A stretch of 64,000 nucleotides of DNA from Tetraselmis striata (Eukaryota; Chlorophyta; Chlorodendrophyceae; Chlorodendrales; Chlorodendraceae), in contig VCJN01002128.1 of NCBI GenBank assembly GCA_006384855.1, forward strand, positions 20,974 to 84,973. The letters are read 5' to 3'. The translations under genes and the position numbers were made by a program. How positions within the stretch are numbered: the first letter of the stretch is position 1; each line of letters begins with the position of its first letter. The notes under the pieces were generated by a model, which was given only the letters and a program-made list of their open reading frames with translations, made no database searches and was not told the origin of the DNA. Of the stretch, positions 3,591 to 37,402 are shown piece by piece.

Positions 3591-3884
3591 CACACAATCC
3601 CGGGCCACTCCAATAGGGCACTAGGCCGAATGTGATGTGAAGGCGCCGACAGGAAAGGAGCTGCTTCGAAGTTGAGGTCTCGCAGCAAGGAGCGGAAGTG
3701 GGGGGGGGGGGGGGGGGGGGGGGGTCCAACCCATAACGGGGCGCCACGGGCGTGCAACATACAGATGCAGGCCACCCAACGCCAGATGCGCCGCCAGCTC
3801 GGTCGCGTCCTTTTTCGCCAAACGTAGAACGCCTTCCCCAGCACAACATCCCGGGCCACTCCAATAGCGGCGCTGAGCCGAATG
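3591..3884 (+). repeat. Satellite units left of the transposon (~225-bp family)
   Basis: Units carry the phrases CCCGGGCCACTCCAATAG and GGCCGAATGTGATGTG. One unit spans about 3601-3840 and is lengthened by a G tract (about 3702-3723); the next is cut by the transposon after the G at 3884. Related units continue at 16429-16980 on the other side. Confidence 0.8.
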
Positions 3885-3912
3885 TAACAGTAATGCAACC
3901 TATTTTGCCCCG
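3885..3912 (+). repeat. Left terminal inverted repeat
   Basis: Begins TAACAGTAATGCAACC and continues with a TATTTTGC block. Pairs with 16401-16428 at about 25 of 28 positions. Weaker similarity may extend about 20 bases further in (GGTGCA and TAGGGTTT occur in both ends). Confidence 0.85.
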
Positions 3913-3989
3913 AGGCACGCGGTGCATTGTGGTTAGGTCTAAATTAGGGTTTGGGGGCAGCAGTGGTGTTGAAAGCTAATATGAATGCC

Positions 3990-4205
3990 GGTTGGTTCAT
4001 TTTGTGCCAAGTCGGGGAAACCAATTCCGTCCAAGCAGGGACAAATCAAAAGAGTGAAGGAAACGGGATGGTTACAAGAAGTTTGCGCCACCGGGGGCTG
4101 AAACTCTGTCCAAACTGGGACAAAAAAGAGCGGGGGCCGTGATGGCTACCAAGTAGTTTGTGCCGTCCGGGGCTGAAACTCTGTCAAAGCCGGGACAAAA
4201 CATAT
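3990..4205 (+). repeat. Left subterminal repeats with GGGACAAA motif
   Basis: Three diverged copies of a 70-80 bp phrase (around 3997-4047, 4081-4127 and 4155-4201). The latter two share GGGGCTGAAACTCTGTC, and all end in GGGACAAA preceded by GTCC or GTCA. GGGACAAA also appears in the palindrome at 15536-15557 and as GACAAA in the 24-bp arrays. Subterminal repeats of this kind are often transposase-binding sites; that role is inferred. Confidence 0.65.
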
Positions 4206-4230
4206 GAGCGGCTAATTTTGCGGAATTGTA

Positions 4231-7200
4231 CTACATATCCTCATCTTCGATCACATAATCCCCTCGGCGCTCCGCTGCCTGTTGCCTCCTCTTCTCCGCC
4301 GCTGCACGCTCTAACTCCTCCTCTAACTCGGTCATTGGACGGGGTAGACCCGGCCACTTCTCGAAGTCACTTGGACGCAGTTGTTGAGTCTCGTCCCATG
4401 GCTTCTCTTTGAACCATGAGGTCATCCTGGACTTCATCCCAGCGATTTGCGTCTTCTGGTTGTCAATGAGGATCATCTTCAAGTTCCTGTGTGTGAACGA
4501 GTAGCTATGATCCATATGGTCCCACCACACGGAAAAGGCCGCAGCGACCTGGAAAAGGCGTGGCAAACCGCACAAGGCGTTAATTTTTTTATGCTGACCC
4601 CATTAAGACACTCACCCGGGTTGCACCCCTCACGCACCGCGGTTGTCCCGGTTCCGGCTGTGACGTCGACGATTGTTGTCCCGTCTGTTGCCGCCATCTT
4701 AAGGTGCTTGGCGAAGAGAGCGATAGGCTTTTGGTACTTGTTCACCGTCTGTCTGTTCTCGTCCTTCAATTTCGAACTGTCTTTGAAGTGACCCAACATG
4801 ATGGATGTAGAGAACCTGGAAAGGCACAACCGGCTTAGCGAGTAGAATATACAAGCCGGCTATTTTCCACGGATCAAATCTCACCTTCGGGGATCATTGA
4901 AACGGATGTTGTCAGCTATGATGCTTGGCGGGGGCTTCCTGACGTAGAGGTAGTACTCAGCGTCGTGACGCAGAGAGCTGCCCATCTTCATCCCGCAATC
5001 CTTGGCCCAAGTCAGGACGTGATAGATGAGGTCCTCAGCTTGTGTTTGAACGGCTGTGATTGCGGATCCAAGTTGCTGGTCCGAGAGGTGAATGAAGAAA
5101 TGGCACCCATCGAGAGCAGTGTGGACGTCAGAAGATCCAGTCAGGATATTCAACTGCCTGCGCGGGGGTAAATCGGGAATGAGATAAATGAAAGCACAGT
5201 CATCTAGTACGCACCGGGGTTGTGGGGGTTGTCTTGCCTGGCGAAAGCAAACACGTCGTTGAAGTCGTCCGTACCCCACGCAGCATCCTTCGAGTCCCAT
5301 GTGTGCGAACCAGCTCCGAAAAGCGCGTCGGCAATGAAGACTGTTGCCTTTTTGGCACGAACTGCCGACATGGCGTCCGCGACGAATTGTTTTGTCGCGG
5401 GAGCCTTGAAGTTCCCCTCCACAATGCAAGTCTTGCAAAGCTCCGTGTTCAACCACACATCCTCATCCTTGTCGACCTCATGGCCCTTGGGCATCACCGG
5501 AAGTTTCTCGGCCTGTGTGTATTAGAAAACAGATTCGGGTTAATAGCTCACAACGAAAATTCAGAAGAGCATTTGTGGTTGCACAAGATCTTAGTTACCT
5601 TCATCGATATCCACAGCTCATTAGAAACATTCGGAGCGGAAACCGCGATAAGCTCCGGCGCACATGCCAGAAGAGCAAACTCTGTGAAGAAGGAGATGAC
5701 CAAGTCCGGCATCTGATTCTTGATGCGATACGCCTCACTCCTGATGGTGGTGTTGGTGGCCGCGATATGCTCTCGAACCGGTAGTGGTGTGAGACAATCG
5801 GCGGATTTCATGTCCCCCCATCTGGCAGGAGGGGTCAGCAAGACCATCAAAGGACCGGAGCGATGAGCACCTTTGAACAAATCCTGGAACTTTCTGGGGA
5901 AGCCTGTTGGGCCGAGGTCATCAACCTTGGCTCGGAACTTGGTGATGGCGTCAAGGCGAGCGGCCGCTTGCTCATCCGACACTTTGTCTTCCACATCCCA
6001 ATCGATGATGTGGTCCGAGAGATATTTCCCCCAGTTCCTGGCCGGTTCGTCCGGCGTCAGCAGTCCGATTGCCTCCCTGCCCTTGGCCGTGTCAATGGCA
6101 TTCATGACCTTGATGCTTGCTCGACGCAAGAGATCGCGAAACCGCCAGGTCTCAATCATCGCGAGCCACTCCGCGTTGGTGTGCGTAACAGCCATGGGGC
6201 CATTGTTGCCGGCATGCTTTATGTCATCCACCAGCTCGTAGAGGCAAGGGGTCACACTGTGCTCGCCTTGGATGAGCAGTCCAACCACAAGGTACATCTG
6301 GCCCACAGGGAGATCCGCGCTGTCGCTCTGCTTGGCAAGAGACGGCTCGTCTAGCCAGGGCGTACCGGGGCCAAAGCCGACATCCTGGGTCGAAAAACAA
6401 ACTTCAGTACGGAGAAAGGAATCAATGATAGTATTCCATATGATTAAGACACTGGGGTCGGTCACAACTTACCTCCATGAGGGCGACTCGGAAGTGAGCT
6501 CTGTCTTTCCCGAAGCCGTACTTCTTGTTATCGAGGATTGTATTGATAGGCTTCCGAATTGCTTCGTAAACCTTGCTCACTTCCTTCTGGGTGAGTTGCC
6601 TGCCGTAATTGAGGCGCCGCTTGAGTCTATCGAGTTCTTGCTCGTAGTACACCAATAGGTCTCCGAGTTTGGTTCTGGCTTCGTCCCATCCTCGAACCCC
6701 GAGGTCCACATGCCGGTAGGCTTCAGAAATCTGCTCAAGGGGCTCAAAAACACTGCGCAAATCATTTGTCAGAATCTAGCAGCATTAACAACACGATAAA
6801 TTTTCAACATGTACGCAGCTCACCGTTGTGGGCGCGAGCAGAGGTCAATCAAATTTGAGAACTCGCTGCTCTTCTCATCTTTTATGCCGATCTTCTCAAG
6901 TTCAACTTGAAGAACTTCAGACTTCTTGAACTCCTTCACTACCCTGATTTGCGGAAGTGCCCTAAAGCCGGGGCGATTTGCATCCTGTTCTGCATACCAG
7001 CTCTCGAAACATCTGCGAAGGTTCTGCAGAAACAATTGCACCGATTTCAAAATTCCGAACGCTTGTACCTCGATGACAAACCGTTTCGTCCCGCTGATGA
7101 CAGAACGGTTCGTCCCACTGATGACAGAACGTTTCGTCCCGCTGATGACAGACCGTTTCGTCCCGCTGATGACGGACCGTTTCGTCCCACTGATGACAGA

Positions 7201-10200
7201 CCGTTTCGTCCCACTGATGACAAACCGTTTCGTCCCACTGATGACAGAACGTTTCGTCCCACTGATGACAGAACGTTTCGTCCCACTGATGACAGAACGT
7301 TTCGTCCCGCTGATGACCAACCCTTTCGTCCCGCTGATGACAGACCGATTCGTCCCGCTGATGACAGAACGTTTCGTCCCACTGATGACAGAACGTTTTG
7401 TCCCACTGATGACAGACCGTTTCGTCCCGCTGATGACAGAACGTTTCGTCCCACTGTGACATATTTTTAACCCGCTAACGACAGAACGACTTTTGTCACA
7501 CATTACGCCTATTTGCTGCCACGGTTAGCTAAATAGTAATTTGGGAGAATGGGTCACTCACCAGGAGTTTGTGCATCGACGTGTCTCCCACGACGGTGTG
7601 ACCCGCCTCGTTGAGCTTCATAGACATGTAGCGGCAGACTTCCGGCGAGAGGCCGATGTACATCTTAGTCGACGTGAGGTGGATGCCTTTGTTGGCGTTG
7701 TAGATTTGCGGGTAGTTTTCTTTCACCATGCGCTTCGCCTCCCGTCTGTGGCTGCCGTCGATGTTGGCTTGACGCGCGCCGTGGGCGCGAAGAAACTCGT
7801 CGATGACGTCGATCTCTGGCTCGTAGGAACTTGAATCCGCCAACCTCGGGTTCTCCCCGCCTTGGTCTGCTGCGACTAGCTCCTTGAAGTTGGCCATGGT
7901 CAGAGCCAGGGGCTCGTACTCATCGGATAAAAACGCATGTTTAGGGACTACTGGGAAGGACACTGAGAAATTCTCGGCGGATAGGGAAGGATTCCTCTGA
8001 ATAACAAATGCAAAATAAAGGGATGTCAGTAAGTTGCATTGTGTATTGATTTATATTTGTCTACACATATCTGATCCGGATAGGTACAACAGGTCGCGAT
8101 AGGCTTTTACCTTGTAGCTTTGCGCCACCATATTGCAGTCTTGGAGCTTTGGGGAACGGAATTCAAATTCCGGCGGCGGAGCGACGAACCTATCGGATAT
8201 GAAGCTGAAAATGTAAGGCAGCCCCGTAGCCTTGTTGACCACGAGGTTGACTCTGTCGGCGTACAACATGTTGATGTCGCCACCGTGAGATGTCTTCACC
8301 TCTGGATCAGCAATCTCGACTCTGAGGTGGCCGTAAGAGATCCAGTCGACGGCACCGGTGTTGTGGAAGCCATTCAAGGCCGGCGGGACGGCCAACGTGT
8401 TGACGTATGGAAGCGCGTTCTTAAAATCCTTGTCAATGTTGGCCAAGTCATCGATGTCAATCTGACCCGACGCGAAACCTGTCAGCGCCTGCGCCAGCAC
8501 ATTGCGCTCGACCAAAGTCCATGCGTAGTAAGACTGGAACCGCGGTTGGAAGGGGAGTGGCGGTTGGATCGCGTGGAGTAGCAACCTCTCAAAGCTGACA
8601 TCGATCCTGTACTCCTTGTGCACTGTCAAGCGATAAGGTTCAAGAGATATCTGCGGTAACAAGCACAAGAATATTAATACTTATTGAAACACGACATTGA
8701 CACGAATTCAGACATCATATAAGCTTTACTCACCCCGTAGTTTCCGGCCGAGTCCAGCTTGACGTCCTTGATCTTTCCGATACACGCGAGAAGTGGCCCC
8801 TTCGGATCATCGAAAAAGTCCTTGCCAGTCAGCAGGCTCGCCTTGTGCAATTCGATGTACAAATAGATCTCGACCTTGTCACTTGCGTTCTTGAACCAGT
8901 GGATAGTCCAGCTCCTTGAGGTAAAGTCGCTGTAGGAGTCATGTTCTTGGGACCCGTCCCTCTCGTCAAAGAAGTCGTCGTAAGAGGCGACCGTCATCAG
9001 CTTTGTCTTCCTCTCGGGTCCGGGAGTGCCGGTGATGTCGAGAGCTTGCTTACGCTTCTCCGCCGCCCGTTGCCTCTGTTCTTCCTCTGTGCCGAAGACC
9101 TCTTCATCCGTGCACATACTGAGGAATTCAGGAACCCTTCTCGGAGCCTCGGCAACAGGGGCTCGAGAACAAGAGGCTCCAGAACCGGACGCTTGCCCGG
9201 TAGTCGGCGCTGGAGTCTCGAGCTCGGCCTCTGGCGCCGGGTCAAGCCGAGTGGGCTCGGGCTCCGGCTCGGGCTCCGGCTCGGGCTCCGTCAGAGCGGG
9301 CTCAGTTTCAGGCTCATGCCGAGGCTCTGGCTCGGGCTCATTGGGCTCTGTTTCAGGCTCCGGCTCGGGCTCCGGCTCCGGCTCAGTGTGCTCTATTTCA
9401 GGCTCAGGCTCTGTTTCCGGTACTTGAGGCGGGCCTTTAGACAAAGAAGAGCCTTGATTGGGGGAACCTGTAAAGAATGAGTAGAGAGTACTCAACACAC
9501 CTGCAGTGGGCGTCACGATTAACCCCTGAACGGTATCGCCATACACCATCAAAGCCAAGCGTGATTTTTCTTACCTGGGGATCCCGATCTACCAGCTGCT
9601 TCCTTCGCGGTTGCCCGCGCCAATTTACGACCTGTTGGAACGTCAGATACTCATTGACGAGAAAGTAATCGAAGGGAGTGAGAAGGCAGGGATTGATACT
9701 TTCAGTCACAATTACCTGGAGTCACAATCGTCTCTGAAACCTTTTCTTTTCCCTTGGATTCCGTTGAAGCTTGAGTCGCTACTGGCTCTTGTGCGCGTCC
9801 TTTCGAACCTATCAACACACATGATTTTAAACAATGTCAATATGACACAGTGCACTCACAAAGGCAGGGATTGATACTTTCAGTCACAATTACCTGGAGT
9901 CACAATCGTTTCTGAAACTTTTTCTTTTCCCTTGGATTCCTTTGAAGCTTTAGTCGCTACTGGCTCTTGTGCGCGTCCTTTCGAACCTGTCAACACACAT
10001 GATTTCAAACAATGTCAATATGACACAGTGCACTCACAAAAATCATATGATTGGAGAGGCGAGGACCTGATTGATAGTAAGCTTGCATGAGCTTTTCGTA
10101 ATCGATTAGCCTTCGCGCTGTCTGCATTTGAGCATCTGAGAGGACCTGCCCGCTCTTGATTCGGGCCCTCAAACGCAAGGCGGCCGATCTTTCTCCTTGC

Positions 10201-11748
10201 GAGTGCGTGCCGTAAGCCGGCACTCTACCTCTTAAAAGGCTCGGTTTCCAGGGGTTACCTGATGCCTCAGCGCCGGCTCCAGCTGCAGAAGCTGAGGCTG
10301 CACGGCTCTTCTTCGCCGCCGGCTGCTCGGGCACAGAAGATGACGCCTTGTGTTTTCTCCCGACTAGCGCTCCGAGCGCATCGAATTCTTTTGCTTTCTC
10401 GGTAGGTTTTGATGTCCGCTTGGACCTCCGACCTAAAAATATCATATCCTGTCAGACCGTTTCGTCCCACTGATGACAGACCGTTTCGTCCCACTGATGA
10501 CAGACCGTTTCGTCCCACTGAGGACAAACCGTTTCGTCCCACTGATGACGAACCGTTTCGTCCCACTGATGACAAACCGTTTCGTCCCACTGATGACAGA
10601 ACGTTTCGTCCCACTGATGACAAACCGTTTCGTCCCACTGATGACAAACCGTTTCGTCCCACTGATGACAGAACGTTTCGTCCCACTGATGACAAACCGT
10701 TTCGTCCCACTGATGACAAACCGTTTCGTCCCACTGATGACAAGCCGTTTCGTCCCATTGATGACAAACCGTTTCGTCCCACTGATGACAAACCGTTTCG
10801 TCCCACTGATGACAAACCGTTTCGTCCCACTGATGACAAACCGTTTTGTCCCACTGATGACAAACCGTTTCGTCCCACTGATGACAGACCGTTTCGTCCC
10901 ACTGATGACAGACCGTTTCGTCCCGCTGATGACAAAACGTTTCGTCCCACTGATGACAAACCGTTTCGTCCCACTGATGACAAACCGTTTCGTCCCACTG
11001 ATGACAAACCGTTTCGTCCCACTGATGACAAACCGTTTCGTCCCACTGATGACAAACTGTTTCGTCCCACTGATGACAAACCGTTTCGTCCCACTGATGA
11101 CAAACCGTTTTGTCCCACTGATGACAAAACTATTTTCAATACATTATGTACTGCGGTTTAATAATGCAATGTCTTTAAGTACTGCGCTTCACACTAATAT
11201 TAAACCACTCCTTATGGCGGAGTACAGGCAGAGGTTCCCCCGAAACGGAGTAACCGAACTCGCTAGATCTGGCCGCATCACGCGTCGAGCAGGCAGGCGG
11301 CTATTGTACGCTGCCACTCGTCTGCCTACACCTCGAGTGGTCCTAGATTACACCGCTTCTACAGGGAACCCTAACCGAACTCGCTAGATCTGGCCGCATC
11401 ACGCGTCGAGCAGGCAGGCGGCTACTGTACGCTGCCACTCGTCTGCCTACACCTCGAGCGGTCCTAGATTACACCGCTTCTACAGGGAACCCTAACCGAA
11501 CTCGCTAGATCTGGCCGCATCACGCGTCGAGCAGGCAGGCGGCTACTGTACGCTGCCACTCGTCTGCCTACGCCTCGAGTGGTCCTAGATTACACCGCTT
11601 CTACAGGGAACCCTAACCGAACTCGCTAGATCTGGCCGTATCACGCGTCGAGCAGGCAGGCAGCTACTGTACGCGCGCGCAACTCACCTGGGGTGGCGTC
11701 GTCCTTGTCTTCCTTGTCCTTGGCAGGCTCGTTCTTCTTCGGCGCCAT
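4231..11748 (-). CDS. Transposon-borne ~1570-aa protein with C-terminal DNA methyltransferase-like domain
   Basis: Fourteen exons: 11688-11748, 10067 or 10038-10432, 9894-9986, 9716-9808, 8734-9467, 8111-8650, 7562-7996, 6824-7068, 6473-6752, 5599-6384, 5211-5512, 4885-5157, 4638-4815, 4231-4548. All joins keep frame with GT-AG sites, except that exon 2 needs the weaker donor at 10067 and exon 11 a donor at 5211. The N-terminus is lysine-rich, then Glu-Pro repeats (exon 5), then a large region I do not recognise. The C-terminus resembles beta-class N6/N4 DNA methyltransferases. [13 protein letters not shown] segment precedes [13 protein letters not shown], which forms only after splicing exons 13 and 14 and matches the SAM-binding motif. 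Upstream, where DPPY is expected, exon 11 reads DALFG followed by WDSKDAAW, so catalysis is doubtful. [12 protein letters not shown] segment fits the strand before the KP motif. Start: ATG at 11748, giving MAPKKNEP. Confidence 0.75.
7078..7460 (+). repeat. 24-bp motif array 1 (intron 7 of the methyltransferase-like gene)
   Basis: About 16 tandem copies of a unit with core TTTCGTCCCACTGATGACA followed by AAACCG or GAACG. The array lies wholly inside the intron between exons 7562-7996 and 6824-7068, directly upstream of the acceptor at 7069. Its length is a multiple of three and it lacks stops in several frames, so it creates long spurious open frames on both strands. Confidence 0.95.
9690..10037 (-). 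repeat. ~178-bp tandem duplication carrying a 93-nt exon
   Basis: The segments 9690-9860 and 9861-10037 are near-identical. Each contains one 93-nt exon with its acceptor and GTAATT donor. Both exons are phase 1 at each end, so inclusion of one or both copies keeps frame. Confidence 0.85.
10453..11127 (+). repeat. 24-bp motif array 2 (intron 1 of the methyltransferase-like gene)
   Basis: About 28 copies of the same unit as in arrays 1 and 3, more homogeneous than array 1. It lies inside the first intron (10433-11687) and ends about 20 nt from the acceptor of exon 2. Orientation on the plus strand is the same as in the other two arrays. Confidence 0.96.
11254..11674 (+). repeat. 121-bp tandem repeat, about 3.5 copies
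   Basis: Units start CCGAACTCGCTAGATCTGG at 11254, 11375, 11496 and 11617; the last is partial. The repeat is in the same first intron as array 2, close to the donor of exon 1, and is unrelated to the 24-bp motif. Confidence 0.95.
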
Positions 11749-12290
11749 TCTGGCCGTAGGTAGGTTGACGCGGTAGATGAGCGGGTTTCTTGGTGGGAAG
11801 CGGTGAGGGAGAGGTGGAAATGACGTGGTTTCTGTCTGCCGCCGCTCTGACCCCTGCTGGACCAACGGCGCGCGTGCGCACACTATAGTGTACCTCGTCG
11901 TCGTCATCAGGTTCATGTATTTTGCACCGCGACGAATATACAAGGCTAACTACTGCGACTATATATTACTATTACTGGAAGATAAAATATTCCCTACTCG
12001 AGAGTCATAACGGTACGAGAGTACAGTGGCGTGGCAATAATATTCCTTCATGGGATGATATATTCCTTGGATTGGATTCGGGTGTACTTACTAGTATAGA
12101 ACTATTCCCGACATACGAAAGAAACACGAAATAGCACGGTATTTGAGTCCTCAATTATTTTGACCCGTAGCTGGATATTATGCCCCCCGGTCAACGGCCC
12201 GTCCGAGAACGGTCATCGGCCGTCACTCTTCTTCACCACAGATCACAGTCCTTCACCCCCCCCCCCCCCCACCCACTCGCCCCGCGCTGC
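11749..12290. promoter_or_regulatory. Divergent intergenic region between the two transposon genes
   Basis: The 542 bp between the two opposed start codons must hold both promoters. A C tract at about 12256-12270 lies in the presumed 5' leader of the plus-strand gene. I see no convincing TATA element; the role is inferred from position only. Confidence 0.5.
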
Positions 12291-15200
12291 ATGGCGGCGG
12301 TCGAAAGCATGGCCTCTTCTCCAGGATCCGGCGCGTCGGACACTACAGTTACATTACCGCTGTGTTCGTGCCGCAGTGGATACTCGTGTGATTGCGACGC
12401 GCGTGCGAGTGATCGTAAGGAGCCTGAGAAAAGGAAGTACACGTGGGGCAAGGGCTGCGATGAGGTCGCCGAAAGCGGTAATGGCAAGGTCTCGTCTCTG
12501 ATCAGCAAGCGCACCTCTCGCGATTGTATCCGCCTCATGCTCGCCAAGGAGGCTAGCGAGCAGTCGCCATGCTGTTCGCGCAAGTGCGTGCACAAGCTAT
12601 ACACACAGTGCGGAGAGGCCCTCGTTGATGCCGTGTTGGACCGTGCGTTGACCGTATACTCTGGCAATCAGAACCGCTCCTTTGACCGGCTCGCTCAGGT
12701 TCTCAGGGGTGGCTACGAGTCGGCATCCGACAAGTTCGATTACATGTTCGATCACGGTGGCTACTTGCGATCTTTCGATCATCGCGGCCCCATCTACACG
12801 TGTGGGCGTGCGTGGGAGGTCTTGCATCAGGTCTCGAAACACAGACGTCTCGTGATCCAGCGGTCGGTGGTGGATAACGAACCCACGTACATCAGGCAGC
12901 GCAAGCAATACGAGAGCAGACAGACCGGACCGAGGGAGCATGTGCGCATGTTTCTCGAGCACTTCTTCTCGGATGACCTCGGTCACGTCGAGATCATGCC
13001 TTTTCATGACGGAAACAGCGAGACCTTCAAGAAGCACCTACCTCCCTGGATGACCAAGATTTGCGTCTACTACTACTACAAGTCGTGGGCCGAGGACGAC
13101 AACGCCATTCTCCGTGGTGAGGCCCATTTTGTCCCACTGATGACAGAACGTTTCGTCCCACTGATGACAGACCGTTTCGTCCCACTGATGACAAACCGTT
13201 TCGTCCCACTGATGACAAACCGTTTCGTCCCACTGATGACAAACCGTTTCGTCCCACTGATGACAAACCGTTTCGTCCCACTGATGACAAACCGTTTCGT
13301 CCCACTGATGACATACCGTTTCGTCCCACTGATGACAAACCGTTTCGTCCCACTGATGACAAACCGTTTTGTCCCGCTGCTGACAGACCGTTTTGTCCCG
13401 CTGATGACAAACCGTTTCGTCCCGCTGATGACAAACCGTTTTGTCCCGCTGATGACAAACCGTTTTGTCCCACTGATGACATAACGTTTCGTCCCGCTAT
13501 CGCCAGAACGTTTAGTCCCACCGACGCCGGACCGATTTCGTCCCACTGATGACAGAACGTTTCGCACCGCTCATGGCATACCGTTTCGTCCCACCGACCG
13601 CAAAAGTATTTGTCCCACATAATTAGCCGATATCGTCCCACTGCAGAGAGAACGTCTTGTCCCACTGCTGAGATACGGTTTCGTCCCACTACTGACATAC
13701 CGTTTCGTCACACTGTTGACAGATTGTTTCCCCATGCTGATTACAGAATTATTCACCCACTACCGATATAATTATTTCGACCCACTTCAGACCGAACTTT
13801 TCTGTCTCGCATTATGAGACCTTATTTGTATACCGACATATCACGCCCCTGCCCCTTTGTAGATTTGGCTACCGAGAGCGAAGTGAAGCTCGCATCGTTC
13901 GACACTTTCCGCCGGACTTGGAAGGAAGACTTCCCGGATGTCACCACGCCGAAGGTGAAGCGATTCAGCCACTGTCCCATATGCGCGGCGGGCAAAGCAC
14001 TCAGAGACCAAGCTCGCGAGATTTGCACAAAGGACATGACGCCAGAGGAACGTCAAGTGCACCGTCAACATCAGCAGCTGGTGAGGCGTCAGGTCAGAGC
14101 TGAGCAGAAGGTACACCTCGAGAGAGTGCGCCAGGAACGAAGGGATCTGAACAACGCCGTCTTCCAGTCGCGCCTTGGCCATGGAAACTTCTTCTTCTTC
14201 GAAATTGATAGCATGGACTCCGCGAAGACCCTGCTGCCTCACTGGGTTCGCATCCCCAAGACTGTGAAGCCCGACATGCTCCTCAAGTACCACCTCACCT
14301 GTGTGAAGTACGACGGATACCGCCCGGACGACATCTACTACTACACCAACACCATCCCCCACGATTCGTCCACGACGTGCACTCTGATATGGATCACGAT
14401 CATGAAGGTGAGCTCGTTAGCCTCCCGATAGGTTCGCCGTGGTTGTCCGGTAGCCATGGACTGATGAAATCTGGTCTGCGATGCAGGAAATTCAACACCG
14501 TGGTAGAAAGATTCCGTACATCAGAATCCAGATGGACAACACCGTCAGGGAGAACAAGAATAGGAACGTGGCGGCCCTCTGCAATTGGCTTGTGTCTATC
14601 GGCATCTGCGACGTCATTCATTTGGTCTTCTTGCCTGTCGGGCACACTCACGAACGGGTTGACCAGATCTTCAGCCGCATCAGTCTTGCGCTATCTCGCA
14701 GCTCCGCCTACACAATCGAGGCCTTTCTTGACTTGGTGGCGAAGGCATTCTCGCCCACTCCGGAGATTGCTGAGCTCTCATTCTCCCTCGACTTCTCTGA
14801 GTGGTTAAGGCCCCATTTCCAAGACCACATTCAGGACATCAGTAAGCCGCACAAATTCGAGTTCACCCGTGACGACGCCGCCGCGTCTGGCGGCTCGTTG
14901 CGCACCGCCTTGTGGTCCAACACACCGCTTTCGGAGCCCGTGCAGATCTTGAAGAGCGCGCCAACTGGGACGCCCGAGATTCGTGCGGGCCGGCCCCTTT
15001 TGTACGCTCTCTGCGACAAAAAGAAGCCCGACGCGGTGAAGGTCCAGAGGTACTTGGATGATTTCAAGAAGGTCAGGTCGTACATCACGGACCTGGCGGT
15101 CCAGTGGCACTTCTCCCCAGTCGAGCGCGAGAGCTGGAAGAATCTGCTCGACGACTTGGATGAGATGCAAACTTCTCCTTCGGCAGCTTTCTCCGGGTTC

Positions 15201-16134
15201 TGGCCGCAACGGAAAGAGGAAGTTGACGACTTCTTGCGCGAGCACGGGCAGACCGCGCCTGCTGAGGCACGTCACACGATGGCTACCAACGCAGACCTCA
15301 ACAATGCCGAAGCCGCTCGCGTTGAAGCCGAGGTTCGTGCTCAAGTGCTTCAAGATGACAGCGCCTTCCGGGGAGTTCACGCCGGCGCCAAGGAGAGGCT
15401 TCATGACAACACATCGCCCAGCGATGCAAAGGGCTCGAACCTCGTTGTCATCGACGTCTCCGATGTGAGTCCCATTGTTTGTCATTTTTGTCCTTTACGG
15501 GACAAAACAATTTGGTTCTTCTACCTTGCTTGTTATTTTGTCCCAGCTGGGACAAAAATGGCGTGGCGTGTCGCTCGGGACTAACATAGCTCGCGGTCTT
15601 GGTCATCGTTAGGTGCATGAGGAAGACAAGTGTCCTGAAACTCTTGGTGATTGGGAGTCGAGATTCGTCATCGGGCTTGTGAAGTCGCGCGAGACTACCG
15701 AAGACACGTTGACCGTGGCCGTATACGAGCCCTTCCATGCCGATGCAAAGGGCAAACCCCTTATGCCCCTATGGTTGTACGCGCAGACAAAAGGAGGGAA
15801 GAAGCCAGTTGACACAAGCTGGGAGAAGTGCCTGACGCTTCCTTGGAAGCTTGTTGAAGCCGTCCCCCTATCGTACGCGAAGGCCATCCACGACGCGTCG
15901 GGAAGTCGAGAGGTGTTCAACGAGGACGGCACCATGGTCAGAAAGAAGTGGTACGGTAAAAGCGTCCAAGTCGTGAAGACATATGCGCAAACTGGGTGGC
16001 AAATCAGCCAGCCACGAAACAACTGCGTCCACGTCATGTCAACCACCCCAGCGCAACGCAAACCCGGCGGAGTCGTCAAGTTTAATGCAGCCACGAAGAA
16101 GGACTTGCTTGAGTTGGGGATGCTCAACGAATAA
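12291..16134 (+). CDS. DUF7869-type transposase candidate (956 aa)
   Basis: Four exons, 12291-13116, 13863-14407, 14487-15464 and 15613-16134, join in phase (1, 0, 0). The start MAAVESMASS is chosen because upstream ATGs lie before a C tract. Residues about 90-275 contain a CCSRKCVHKL cysteine cluster typical of the N-terminal part of DUF7869 proteins. The core has three acidic motifs: DSMDSAK (Asp near 390), MDNTVRENKNR (near 474) and LPVGHTHERVDQIFSRI (near 516). This order matches the DUF7869 family, which I take to be an RNase H-like transposase fold. The C-terminal 400 residues are charged and not recognised. Intron 1 is filled by 24-bp array 3. No stop or frameshift is seen, so it may be active. 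Calling it the transposase of this element is inference from its position between the termini. Confidence 0.85.
13127..13800 (+). repeat. 24-bp motif array 3 (intron 1 of the DUF7869 gene)
   Basis: About 19 good copies from 13127 to about 13580, then increasingly decayed copies up to about 13800. It fills most of the 746-nt intron 13117-13862. Here the motif is in the sense orientation of its host gene, whereas arrays 1 and 2 are antisense to theirs; orientation relative to the element is constant. Confidence 0.95.
15486..15557. repeat. Palindromic GTCCC/GGGAC motifs in DUF7869 intron 3
   Basis: 15536-15557 is a perfect 22-bp palindrome with half-site TTTTGTCCCAG. Just upstream, TTTTGTCC (15486-15493) and GGGACAAAA (15499-15507) form a second inverted pair. 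The half-site matches the start of the 24-bp array unit and the subterminal motifs. Confidence 0.85.
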
Positions 16135-16400
16135 ACTATCAGCAACGTCTTGTGGCTAGCTAGCCGCTGGATGTAATAATCATAATAAATATTGATTTCA
16201 TTGCCTCATCTTGTCCCATTTTGGACAAAATGCTCCAAAACCAACATTGGATATGCGTCGCGGCTGGCCTTCATGCTGTTGAATGCTGCACTGCACCCAA
16301 GGTCTACAAACCCAAGCTACATCACCAGTGAGTCTTAAGTACTGATAGTAAACCCGGGAACTAGGGTATAAACAAACCCTACGGTGCAAAATGAATTCCA
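16135..16400. other. Right subterminal region of the transposon
   Basis: Non-coding 3' flank of the DUF7869 gene. It contains a further TTGTCC/GGACAA inverted pair at about 16211-16230, echoing the left subterminal motifs. No gene seen. Confidence 0.6.
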
Positions 16401-16428
16401 CGGCGCAAAATAGGTTAAATTACTGTTA
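16401..16428 (-). repeat. Right terminal inverted repeat
   Basis: Reverse complement begins TAACAGTAATTTAACC. See left terminal repeat at 3885-3912. Confidence 0.85.
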
Positions 16429-16980
16429 TGTGATGTGGAGGCGCCAACAGGACAGGAAGGGAGAGAGTGCTCAACGAGTAGGGAATGCAGAGCCGACCGG
16501 GCCAGCAACGACGTAAGACGCCGGTGTCCAGCGCGCTTTGTTCCGCCCAGCGCCAGATCCGCCGCCAACTCGGTCGCGTCCCCTTCCGCCGAACGTAGAA
16601 CTCCCTTCCCAGCACAACATCCCGGGCCACTCCAATAGCGGCACTAGGCCGAATGTGATGTGGAGGCGCCGACAGGACAGGAAAGGAGAGGGTGCTCAGA
16701 GAACAGCGAACGGGGACTTGACCGGACCAGCAACGACGTAAGACGCCGGTGTCCAGCTCACACTGCTCCTCCGCGGCAGTGGCAACACGGGCGGGGCCAA
16801 GGCTACCAAGGCGCCACCCGTGCACGATCCCCGCCCCCATCCCCAGCCGGGGGTGGAGGCGGAGGAAGGGCCCGCGATTCCGAGGGCCGAGGACGGTCGT
16901 CGGGCCCGCCCAAGCGGCGGTGGGTGGGAACTGCTAAGTCAGCGGCCAGCGGGAGAAATATAGGCCCGGATTTCTCCTGA
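16429..16980 (+). repeat. Satellite units right of the transposon (~225-bp family)
   Basis: TGATGTGGAGGCGCC starts at 16431 and again at 16656, giving a period of 225 bp. The unit contains CCCTTCCCAGCACAACATCC and the intact target site at about 16649-16660. The array decays into GC-rich unique DNA after about 16800. Confidence 0.8.
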
Positions 16981-18710: not shown

Positions 18711-18756
<46 letters not shown>

Positions 18757-25486: not shown

Positions 25487-25518
<32 letters not shown>

Positions 25519-36700: not shown

Positions 36701-37402
36701 TAAAAGAGAAATGGCTACGCGCATATGCTAAAAGCATGTCTGTATCTTTGGTGGCGGTGGTCTTGGTGTGTGCGTATGTGTCAGGAGGGAAAGGGGGGGG
36801 GGGGGGGGGGGGGGGGGGTTGTGACGTTCCGAATTATTCGACTAAGTGGGAATAAGCTGTTCATGCAAACGCCGGCATCCTAGCCCAGGCAGCCGTGCGC
36901 GGTTGTGCGGGGTCCCACTGCTACTCGGGGGAATATCTTATTGCAAAGCCGTTTCACGACGCAAGAATGGAGTCTATGGAAGAGGGTGGTCACTACCGAC
37001 AAAACTTCGTGGAGCTGACAAACGCCCTCGGCCGCCGACCGGCCGCAGAGGCCCCGCCTTCCCCCACAGTCAGAGTTGCCCTTCGACAAGTGCAGTCGGC
37101 CCGCTGACCTGACTCTACTCCATGAATCATCGCATCCCAGTGAACTAGTTGCCATTGTAAACGCCAAAACAGCCTAGTCCCAGCGAATGGCAGAGGCAGC
37201 TCACCATGTCCAGCTGGCGATAAGTTACGGCAAAGTGGATGGGTGCGCCTGCGCCGTTGTTTTGCGTAAGGAAGTACGGGTCGTTGGCCATGATGCTCGC
37301 CAGCTTCTCGGGGTCGCCGGTCCTGACACAGGTGTAGAAAGCGAACGGCTGATTCTTAGGGGTCGGTGGGTACCGACCCGTACCGGTCATGTCCCGTGGC
37401 AT
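33768..37402 (-). CDS. Ankyrin-repeat protein fused to malonyl-CoA:ACP transacylase (FabD)
   Basis: Eleven exons in phase: 37205-37402, 36257-36382, 35940-36092, 35641-35743, 35422-35513, 35094-35246, 34758-34961, 34481-34669, 34341-34391, 34134-34205, 33768-34031, giving 534 aa. Residues 1-110 carry ankyrin repeats (GAEINQRDDRGWTPLHRAAH; SRGADPSIL). A WWTLYDYGLDTVKKWP segment and a basic helix (EEKAARRKRREALLNNVP) follow. From about 225 the protein is FabD: IGFVFPGQGSQAVGML, nucleophile GLSLGEYTAL (Ser near 320), SGAFHTPLM (His near 434), C-terminal ECGPGQQLKAM. FabD moves malonyl groups from CoA to ACP in plastid fatty acid synthesis. The exon ending GTTCCG (35422) and the next starting GTGCCAGTC (35246) join in frame across only 175 nt with no other start or leader exon. 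The N-terminus MPRDMTGTGRYPP is not transit-like, so location is unclear. Two overlapping transcripts remain possible. Confidence 0.8.
36795..36821 (+). repeat. Poly-G tract
   Basis: A run of more than 20 G in the long first intron of the ankyrin-FabD gene (C in the sense strand). Confidence 0.95.

Follow-up and report, generated by a model that had tools for sequence, protein, structure and literature searches.

DNA transposons that carry a DNA-modifying enzyme beside their transposase have been described before. An algal transposon with a methyltransferase gene opposite the transposase gene has already been reported, Sola1-1 of Ectocarpus, and for algal transposons it was proposed that their methyltransferase proteins act on the element's own DNA, binding and modifying it (PMC12477816). 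Virus-borne Mariner elements with methyltransferases were reported earlier (PMC3627910), and TET/JBP genes are present in many lineages of fungal transposons, among them Kyakuja-Dileera-Zisupton (KDZ) elements with target duplications of 7-8 base pairs (bp) (PMC12730594). In VANDAL21 of Arabidopsis, the VANC protein encoded by the element itself binds a motif that is arranged in variable tandem repeats, both within introns and in upstream regions (PMC5735166, PMC10398659). Here, we describe an element in the green alga Tetraselmis striata, found in a stretch of 64,000 nucleotides (contig VCJN01002128.1, positions 20,974 to 84,973; this whole stretch is called the window below). It carries a gene for a DUF7869 protein (gene 2) and, divergently, a gene for a methyltransferase-like protein (gene 1), as well as many copies of a near-palindromic motif (dyad). 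Judging from its sequence, it is probably an autonomous two-gene DNA transposon, with a DUF7869 transposase and a methyltransferase-derived protein that would read the element's own dyads.

Positions 3886-16427 (12542 bp) are a complete terminal-inverted-repeat (TIR) DNA transposon, as seen from termini and 4-bp target duplications that are common to other copies. The TIRs are AACAGTAATGCAACCTATTTTGCCCCG at 3886-3912 (plus strand) and AACAGTAATTTAACCTATTTTGCGCCG at 16401-16427 (minus-strand reading), and the inverted agreement of 25 out of 28 bases given in the original prediction was confirmed by eye. A scan of the genome (224 Mb in 2903 contigs, with the window located on contig C1721) for the exact 27-bp terminal pattern returned 402 matches, 213 forward and 189 reverse, versus none for a backwards control, so that other copies with these termini, as the prediction had required, do exist. 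The window's first 201 bases (from 3885) gave 40 scored matches at 98-100% identity (391 candidates), and its last 202 bases (to 16430) gave 40 at a rounded 100% (395 candidates). The left-end matches start one base after the window's T in 24 of the 40 scored cases, the right-end matches stop 1-3 bases short of the query end in 38 of 40, and the copies start with AACAGTAAT and end with ATTACTGTT. These offsets place the true ends at 3886 (AACAGTAAT...) and 16427 (...ATTACTGTT). Hence, the predicted 12.5-kilobase (kb) transposon stands, but its span of 3885-16428 has to be narrowed, because the outer T and A formerly placed inside the element are part of the duplication. Inverted termini that are fixed in many copies, together with a target duplication of fixed length, are the features of a TIR element of the cut-and-paste type. 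For the terminal 150 bases, predicted folds are no better than those of shuffled sequences, which gives no indication of hairpin ends, and a search for structured RNA in the element gave no Rfam match at gathering scores.

The target-site duplication reads ATGT on both sides, at 3882-3885 and 16428-16431, as judged from the end reads and from empty neighbouring units. It had been predicted to be a 2-bp TG duplication, which proved wrong: an exact 4-bp duplication is present in 13 of the 17 copies that were read at both ends. Besides the window, ten further full copies were sought, four of which ran off their contigs, leaving six and the window's own as seven complete copies. Exact 4-bp duplications are found in five of these seven (ATGT twice, TGAA, ACCC and CTTC), the one in C455 agrees in three of four bases (TTAG/TCAG), and C58 has none. 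Among ten additional copies, eight have exact 4-bp duplications (GCCA, TCAC, AAAA, GCCC, CGTT, ATAT, ACGT and AAAT), C1198 lacks a duplication and is aberrant at its right end, and the right end of C2588 is not at the predicted position. The duplicated sequences are mixed, and no target preference is evident among the 17 copies.

Empty sites can be read as well. The insertion in the window cuts a satellite-like unit, as had been noticed originally, and the string shared by its uninterrupted neighbours begins at 3600 and at 16622. When the flanks of the C1460 insertion are joined so as to keep a single duplication, the resulting sequence has 40 scored matches to repeats (133 candidates) with 94-97% identity, and 37 of these span all 156 bases with zero net change in length. 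Joining the flanks of C363 gave 40 scored matches (74 candidates) with 91-95% identity, 12 of which are 4 bases longer than the query; of two repeat copies compared at the joint, one is as long as a single duplication would predict and the other is 4 bases shorter exactly there. Because the repeat copies differ in length beside the joint, C363 supports a single duplication less cleanly than C1460. The 4-base difference in the repeat hit by this insertion (L082, L083) may be a natural length variant or may reflect traces of old excisions.

The two divergent, intron-rich genes of the original prediction each splice into a long open frame. Gene 2 lies on the plus strand (12291-16134) and has four exons by predicted splicing (12291-13116, 13863-14407, 14487-15464 and 15613-16134), encoding a protein of 956 amino acids (aa). 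DUF7869 (PF25273) matches residues 410-588 at E 1.1e-43 and is the sole family above its Pfam cut-off; the DUF7869 transposase candidate of the original prediction is thus present. Three acidic residues, D391, D474 and E513, whose positions were determined by script, are located within FFFEIDSMD, RIQMDN and GHTHERVD; D391 precedes the stretch matched by DUF7869, and D474 and E513 are 38 residues apart. They are candidates for a catalytic triad with a spacing that would suit a DDE enzyme, and we infer that the DUF7869 protein is a transposase of the DDE type. In the genome, 150 DUF7869 matches were scored, at 121-135 bits, out of 548 candidates; in a search among these for diverged DUF7869 families, three of four stretches were translated, and all three belong to the family of the window's element.

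Gene 1 (minus strand, 11748-4231) is predicted to consist of 15 exons and to encode 1498 aa. Exons 1-8 are at 11748-11688, 10432-10259, 9986-9894, 9808-9716, 9631-9575, 9467-8734, 8650-8111 and 7996-7562, and exons 9-15 at 7023-6824, 6752-6473, 6384-5599, 5512-5238 (GC donor), 5157-4885, 4815-4638 and 4548-4231; the end of exon 2 is the least certain part of the model. The intron between exons 12 and 13 (5158-5237) fits a GC-AG splice (CAG^GCAAGA), and a nearby GT donor breaks the frame. At 9683-10040, a 178-bp segment with a 31-codon exon of gene 1 occurs twice in tandem, the two units being 96% alike, and one of them is absent from C2384 and C1562. The protein has a charged, low-complexity amino end, followed by a long region without a recognised domain and the C-terminal N6/N4 methyltransferase-like domain (aa about 1205-1400) that the original prediction had pointed out. 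This domain is matched by PF01555 (N6_N4_Mtase) at E 3.8e-6 (27.5 bits, with a cut-off of 26.7), and gene 1 is also matched by the DNA methyltransferase family phrog_67 at E 3.1e-9 and by 17 PADLOC methyltransferase models at E<=0.01. All seven copies have DVTAGTGTT as the S-adenosylmethionine (SAM) motif I, with changed residues beside it in C1460. In the profile matches it comes after motifs VIII and X, an order (VIII-X-I) like that of beta-class N6A/N4C enzymes.

The intron arrays of the original prediction were recovered as three minisatellites with a 24-bp unit by tandem-repeat finding, at 7072-7461 (array 1), 10456-11128 (array 2) and, in intron 1 of gene 2, 13127-13721 (array 3). The array units share with a number of single sites a near-palindrome of 21 bases, TTTYGTCCCA-N5-GACAAA. 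In a scan of the window and the seven copies, which allowed up to three mismatches and merged neighbours, single sites were found in the left subterminal repeats at 4000-4200 (near 4000, which is weak with three mismatches, and at 4025, 4105 and 4180), in intron 3 of gene 2 (two dyads within 15487-15556) and in the right subterminal region (16209-16229). The left dyads sit in imperfect repeats of about 75-80 bp, and the second dyad of intron 3, at 15536, lies within a perfect palindrome of 22 bases, TTTTGTCCCAGCTGGGACAAAA. After merging, the window's element has 73 dyads, the seven copies have 42-76, and the other 51458 bp of the window have none; judged against the rest of the window, the motif is specific to the element. 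The single dyads are at corresponding places in the seven copies, two of them being absent from C1460, and the lengths of the arrays vary among copies. All arrays point one way along the element while the two genes diverge, which means that array orientation does not follow transcription. A further tandem array, in intron 1 of gene 1 (11251-11674), has 3.5 repeats of a 121-bp unit whose consensus is unlike the 24-bp unit.

The seven complete copies measure 8.6 to 12.55 kb and are 96-99% identical outside the arrays, with a difference of about 0.7% between the window and C363 or C58. The 12.5-kb element has many copies and looks recently active. The original prediction had asked whether other copies share the ends, a 2-bp duplication and both genes. 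They do share the ends; the duplication is 4 bp rather than 2 bp, and three of the seven, namely the window, C363 and C1562, have uninterrupted frames for both genes from start to stop (gene 1 of the last being 29 aa shorter). C58 has an open gene 2 but not an open gene 1, such that the splicing of gene 2 is open in four of seven. In C2384 and C1460, deletions of 2691 and 2571 bases, respectively, between arrays 2 and 3 have removed the first exons of the two genes; a second deletion in C1460, of 1575 bases, includes array 1. The arrays, having the same direction, are the likely sites of these deletions. Both copies have kept both ends and the end-proximal dyads and have lost the starts of both genes. 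On C2810, a decayed relative with 82% DNA identity (L080, 385-3051) lies upstream of a 7.2-kb deletion derivative (L080/L081), whose left part is 87% and whose right part is 98% identical to the window. The family therefore comprises layers of different age and perhaps also mosaic copies. The derivative has mostly kept the single dyads and has an array with the same 24-bp consensus, and an older, truncated copy there has kept two weak dyads.

The two genes often lie together in this genome. Exon 11 of gene 1 has 146 scored matches in the genome at 75-100% identity (449 candidates), and at least 83 of them have a scored DUF7869 match no more than 16 kb away that is ordered and oriented as in the window's element; conversely, at least 82 of the 150 scored DUF7869 matches are paired with gene 1 in element order. 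Among the scored matches, three close pairs have another order or orientation. These counts are lower bounds, given that they cover scored candidates and that contigs end inside copies. As for selection, the seven copies form 21 pairs, and the ratio of nonsynonymous to synonymous changes (dN/dS) summed across them amounts to 0.23 in gene 2 and 0.69 in gene 1, these values being descriptive rather than tests since the pairs are not independent. Compared with the decayed 82% relative, gene 1 has a dN/dS of 0.55 over five exons and 0.66 in the methyltransferase core. We read this as a clearly constrained transposase candidate and a more weakly constrained partner.

Acting as a DDE-type transposase, the DUF7869 protein would cut at AACAGTAAT and insert the element via 4-bp staggered cuts. 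The divergent, methyltransferase-derived protein of gene 1 would bind the TTTYGTCCCA-N5-GACAAA dyads, both those close to the ends and those of the intron arrays, and, once bound, might mark or merely coat the DNA of its own element, thereby aiding expression or transposition. We infer that it is the best candidate for the reader of at least the arrays. The closest functional parallel would be VANDAL21. VANDALs are MuDR-like, and VANC is not known to contain a methyltransferase domain. The two systems share an element-specific motif that forms variable tandem repeats in noncoding parts, introns among them, of a transposon with several genes, though the motif is YAGTATTAY in VANDAL21 (PMC5735166). 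The fungal transposons with TET/JBP genes, KDZ elements included, likewise carry an accessory DNA-modification enzyme that was proposed to evade silencing, but this enzyme is a dioxygenase rather than a methyltransferase, and the duplications of KDZ elements are longer (PMC12730594). The methyltransferase-bearing Mariner transposons also encode the methyltransferase beside the transposase, but they have Mariner transposases, methyltransferases of the Methyltransf_26 or C5-cytosine families, and an endonuclease in addition. A more far-reaching view, which we hold to be doubtful, is that there is a lineage of DUF7869 transposons in which a bacterial-type methyltransferase has turned into a self-recognition protein, a convergent counterpart of VANC that would read the array dyads and mark or shield its own copies.

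A number of observations weigh against the view that a methyltransferase-derived protein reads and marks the element. The place of catalytic motif IV (aa 1213-1216), assigned by eye and lying ahead of the Pfam match, reads DALF instead of (D/N/S)PP(Y/F) in all seven copies and in the 82%-identical relative; it is thus the form of the family and not a lesion of one copy, and it leaves the capacity of gene 1 for methylation in question. For aa 1151-1440, the summed dN/dS is 1.39, i.e., without constraint among the seven copies, and many of the changes there are confined to single deleted or broken copies (C1460, C2384, C455) or clustered at residues 1153-1174. The methyltransferase region has no sequence relative in the PDB at E up to 1, nor has the DUF7869 protein at E below 0.1. 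No ParB domain was matched in the whole gene 1 protein at E up to 1 or in two middle segments at E up to 10, a search that a very diverged one could escape. Finally, the observed/expected ratio of CpG is 1.05 in the element and 0.97 in the rest of the window, and the rate of transitions at CpG is 0.6 to 1.6 times that of other C:G sites, being slightly raised in five of the seven copies. Cytosine methylation, the expected opponent of an anti-silencing gene, has therefore left little trace. This weak footprint could mean that the element escapes successfully, or that cytosine methylation is irrelevant here.

Gene 1 might instead encode an active methyltransferase of N6-adenine or N4-cytosine, which would place a permissive mark on the element. 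This view overlaps with the one we favor, such that our estimates for the two are not exclusive. The SAM motif and the beta-class-like motif order speak for it, and N6-methyladenine (6mA) accompanies transcriptionally permissive chromatin in AMT1-encoding eukaryotes, chlorophytes being among those sampled (PMC12695648). However, that mark is laid by MT-A70 enzymes, which are a different family, and transposable elements are reported not to be enriched in it (PMC12695648). With the invariant DALF added to this, we consider an active enzyme somewhat unlikely. What gene 1 encodes might also be a mere passenger, the DUF7869 transposase itself binding the dyads, those at the ends placing it for the cut, and the intron arrays being titrating decoys or the product of minisatellite growth in the same transposon. 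Transposase-binding sites are usually near element ends, and the end dyads, in the 75-80 bp repeats on the left and about 200 bp from the right end, have just this position; they are retained in derivatives lacking parts of both genes, and constraint is much stronger on gene 2 than on gene 1. A passenger, however, would fit poorly with the frequent pairing of gene 1 with gene 2, with the degree of constraint on its coding sequence (0.69 and 0.55) and with the presence of arrays in three separate introns, and we regard this explanation as unlikely.

Kinship is a separate matter and compatible with the mechanism proposed above: the element may be a Sola-type transposon with a methyltransferase accessory, DUF7869 being the core of the Sola transposase under a different name. 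The target duplication of Sola1 is 4 bp, as is that of the present element. The same length is a feature of Sola2, whose duplications are AT-rich, however, whereas they are mixed here, with GCCA, ACCC, GCCC and CGTT among others (Sola2 after PMC3627910). Sola1-1_Ec32 of Ectocarpus resembles our element in being a large algal DNA transposon with an N4C/N6A-type methyltransferase gene on the strand opposite the transposase, and differs in its size of 21.5 kb, its Sola1-classed transposase and its accessory protein of 1104 aa with a ParB-like domain (PMC12477816), which the searches of the gene 1 protein did not find. We take a Sola relationship to be a possibility, if the lesser one. Membership in KDZ is ruled out by the 4-bp duplication, as compared to 7-8 bp, and by the lack of a KDZ domain above the Pfam cut-off in gene 2. 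A viral source was also considered and rejected: scans of viral contigs, which reach close relatives only, confirmed none for the DUF7869 protein and none for the methyltransferase region (304 aa) of gene 1, and a degenerate DNA pattern for GHTHExVD gave no match in this search.

Apart from the element, the window contains long pure GT/CA runs and G runs (2497-2566, 18712-18753, 3700-3724, 25490-25518 and 36793-36818), and the assembly includes the plastid genes psaA and psaB (contig C1177:44895-49346). Among the best PDB matches of its PsaB protein are entries from Chlorella, Bryopsis and Chlamydomonas, as would fit a chlorophyte host.

The original prediction knew of no described element that combines a DUF7869 transposase candidate, a methyltransferase-like protein and intron arrays. 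A methyltransferase gene opposite a transposase is known from Sola1-1 (PMC12477816), but the association with DUF7869 was not found in print, the term itself being absent from the literature searched, which left subscription papers largely outside its coverage. What appears to be new here is thus a DUF7869 transposon with a candidate self-recognition motif, the transposon-borne methyltransferase partner being already known in algae. The specificity of this motif (42-76 in each of seven copies, and none in the 51 kb around the window's copy) makes the proposal that such proteins bind and modify the DNA of their own element directly testable. DUF7869 stands for a domain of unknown function, and the exact ends and the 4-bp duplication of this element give it a probable job.

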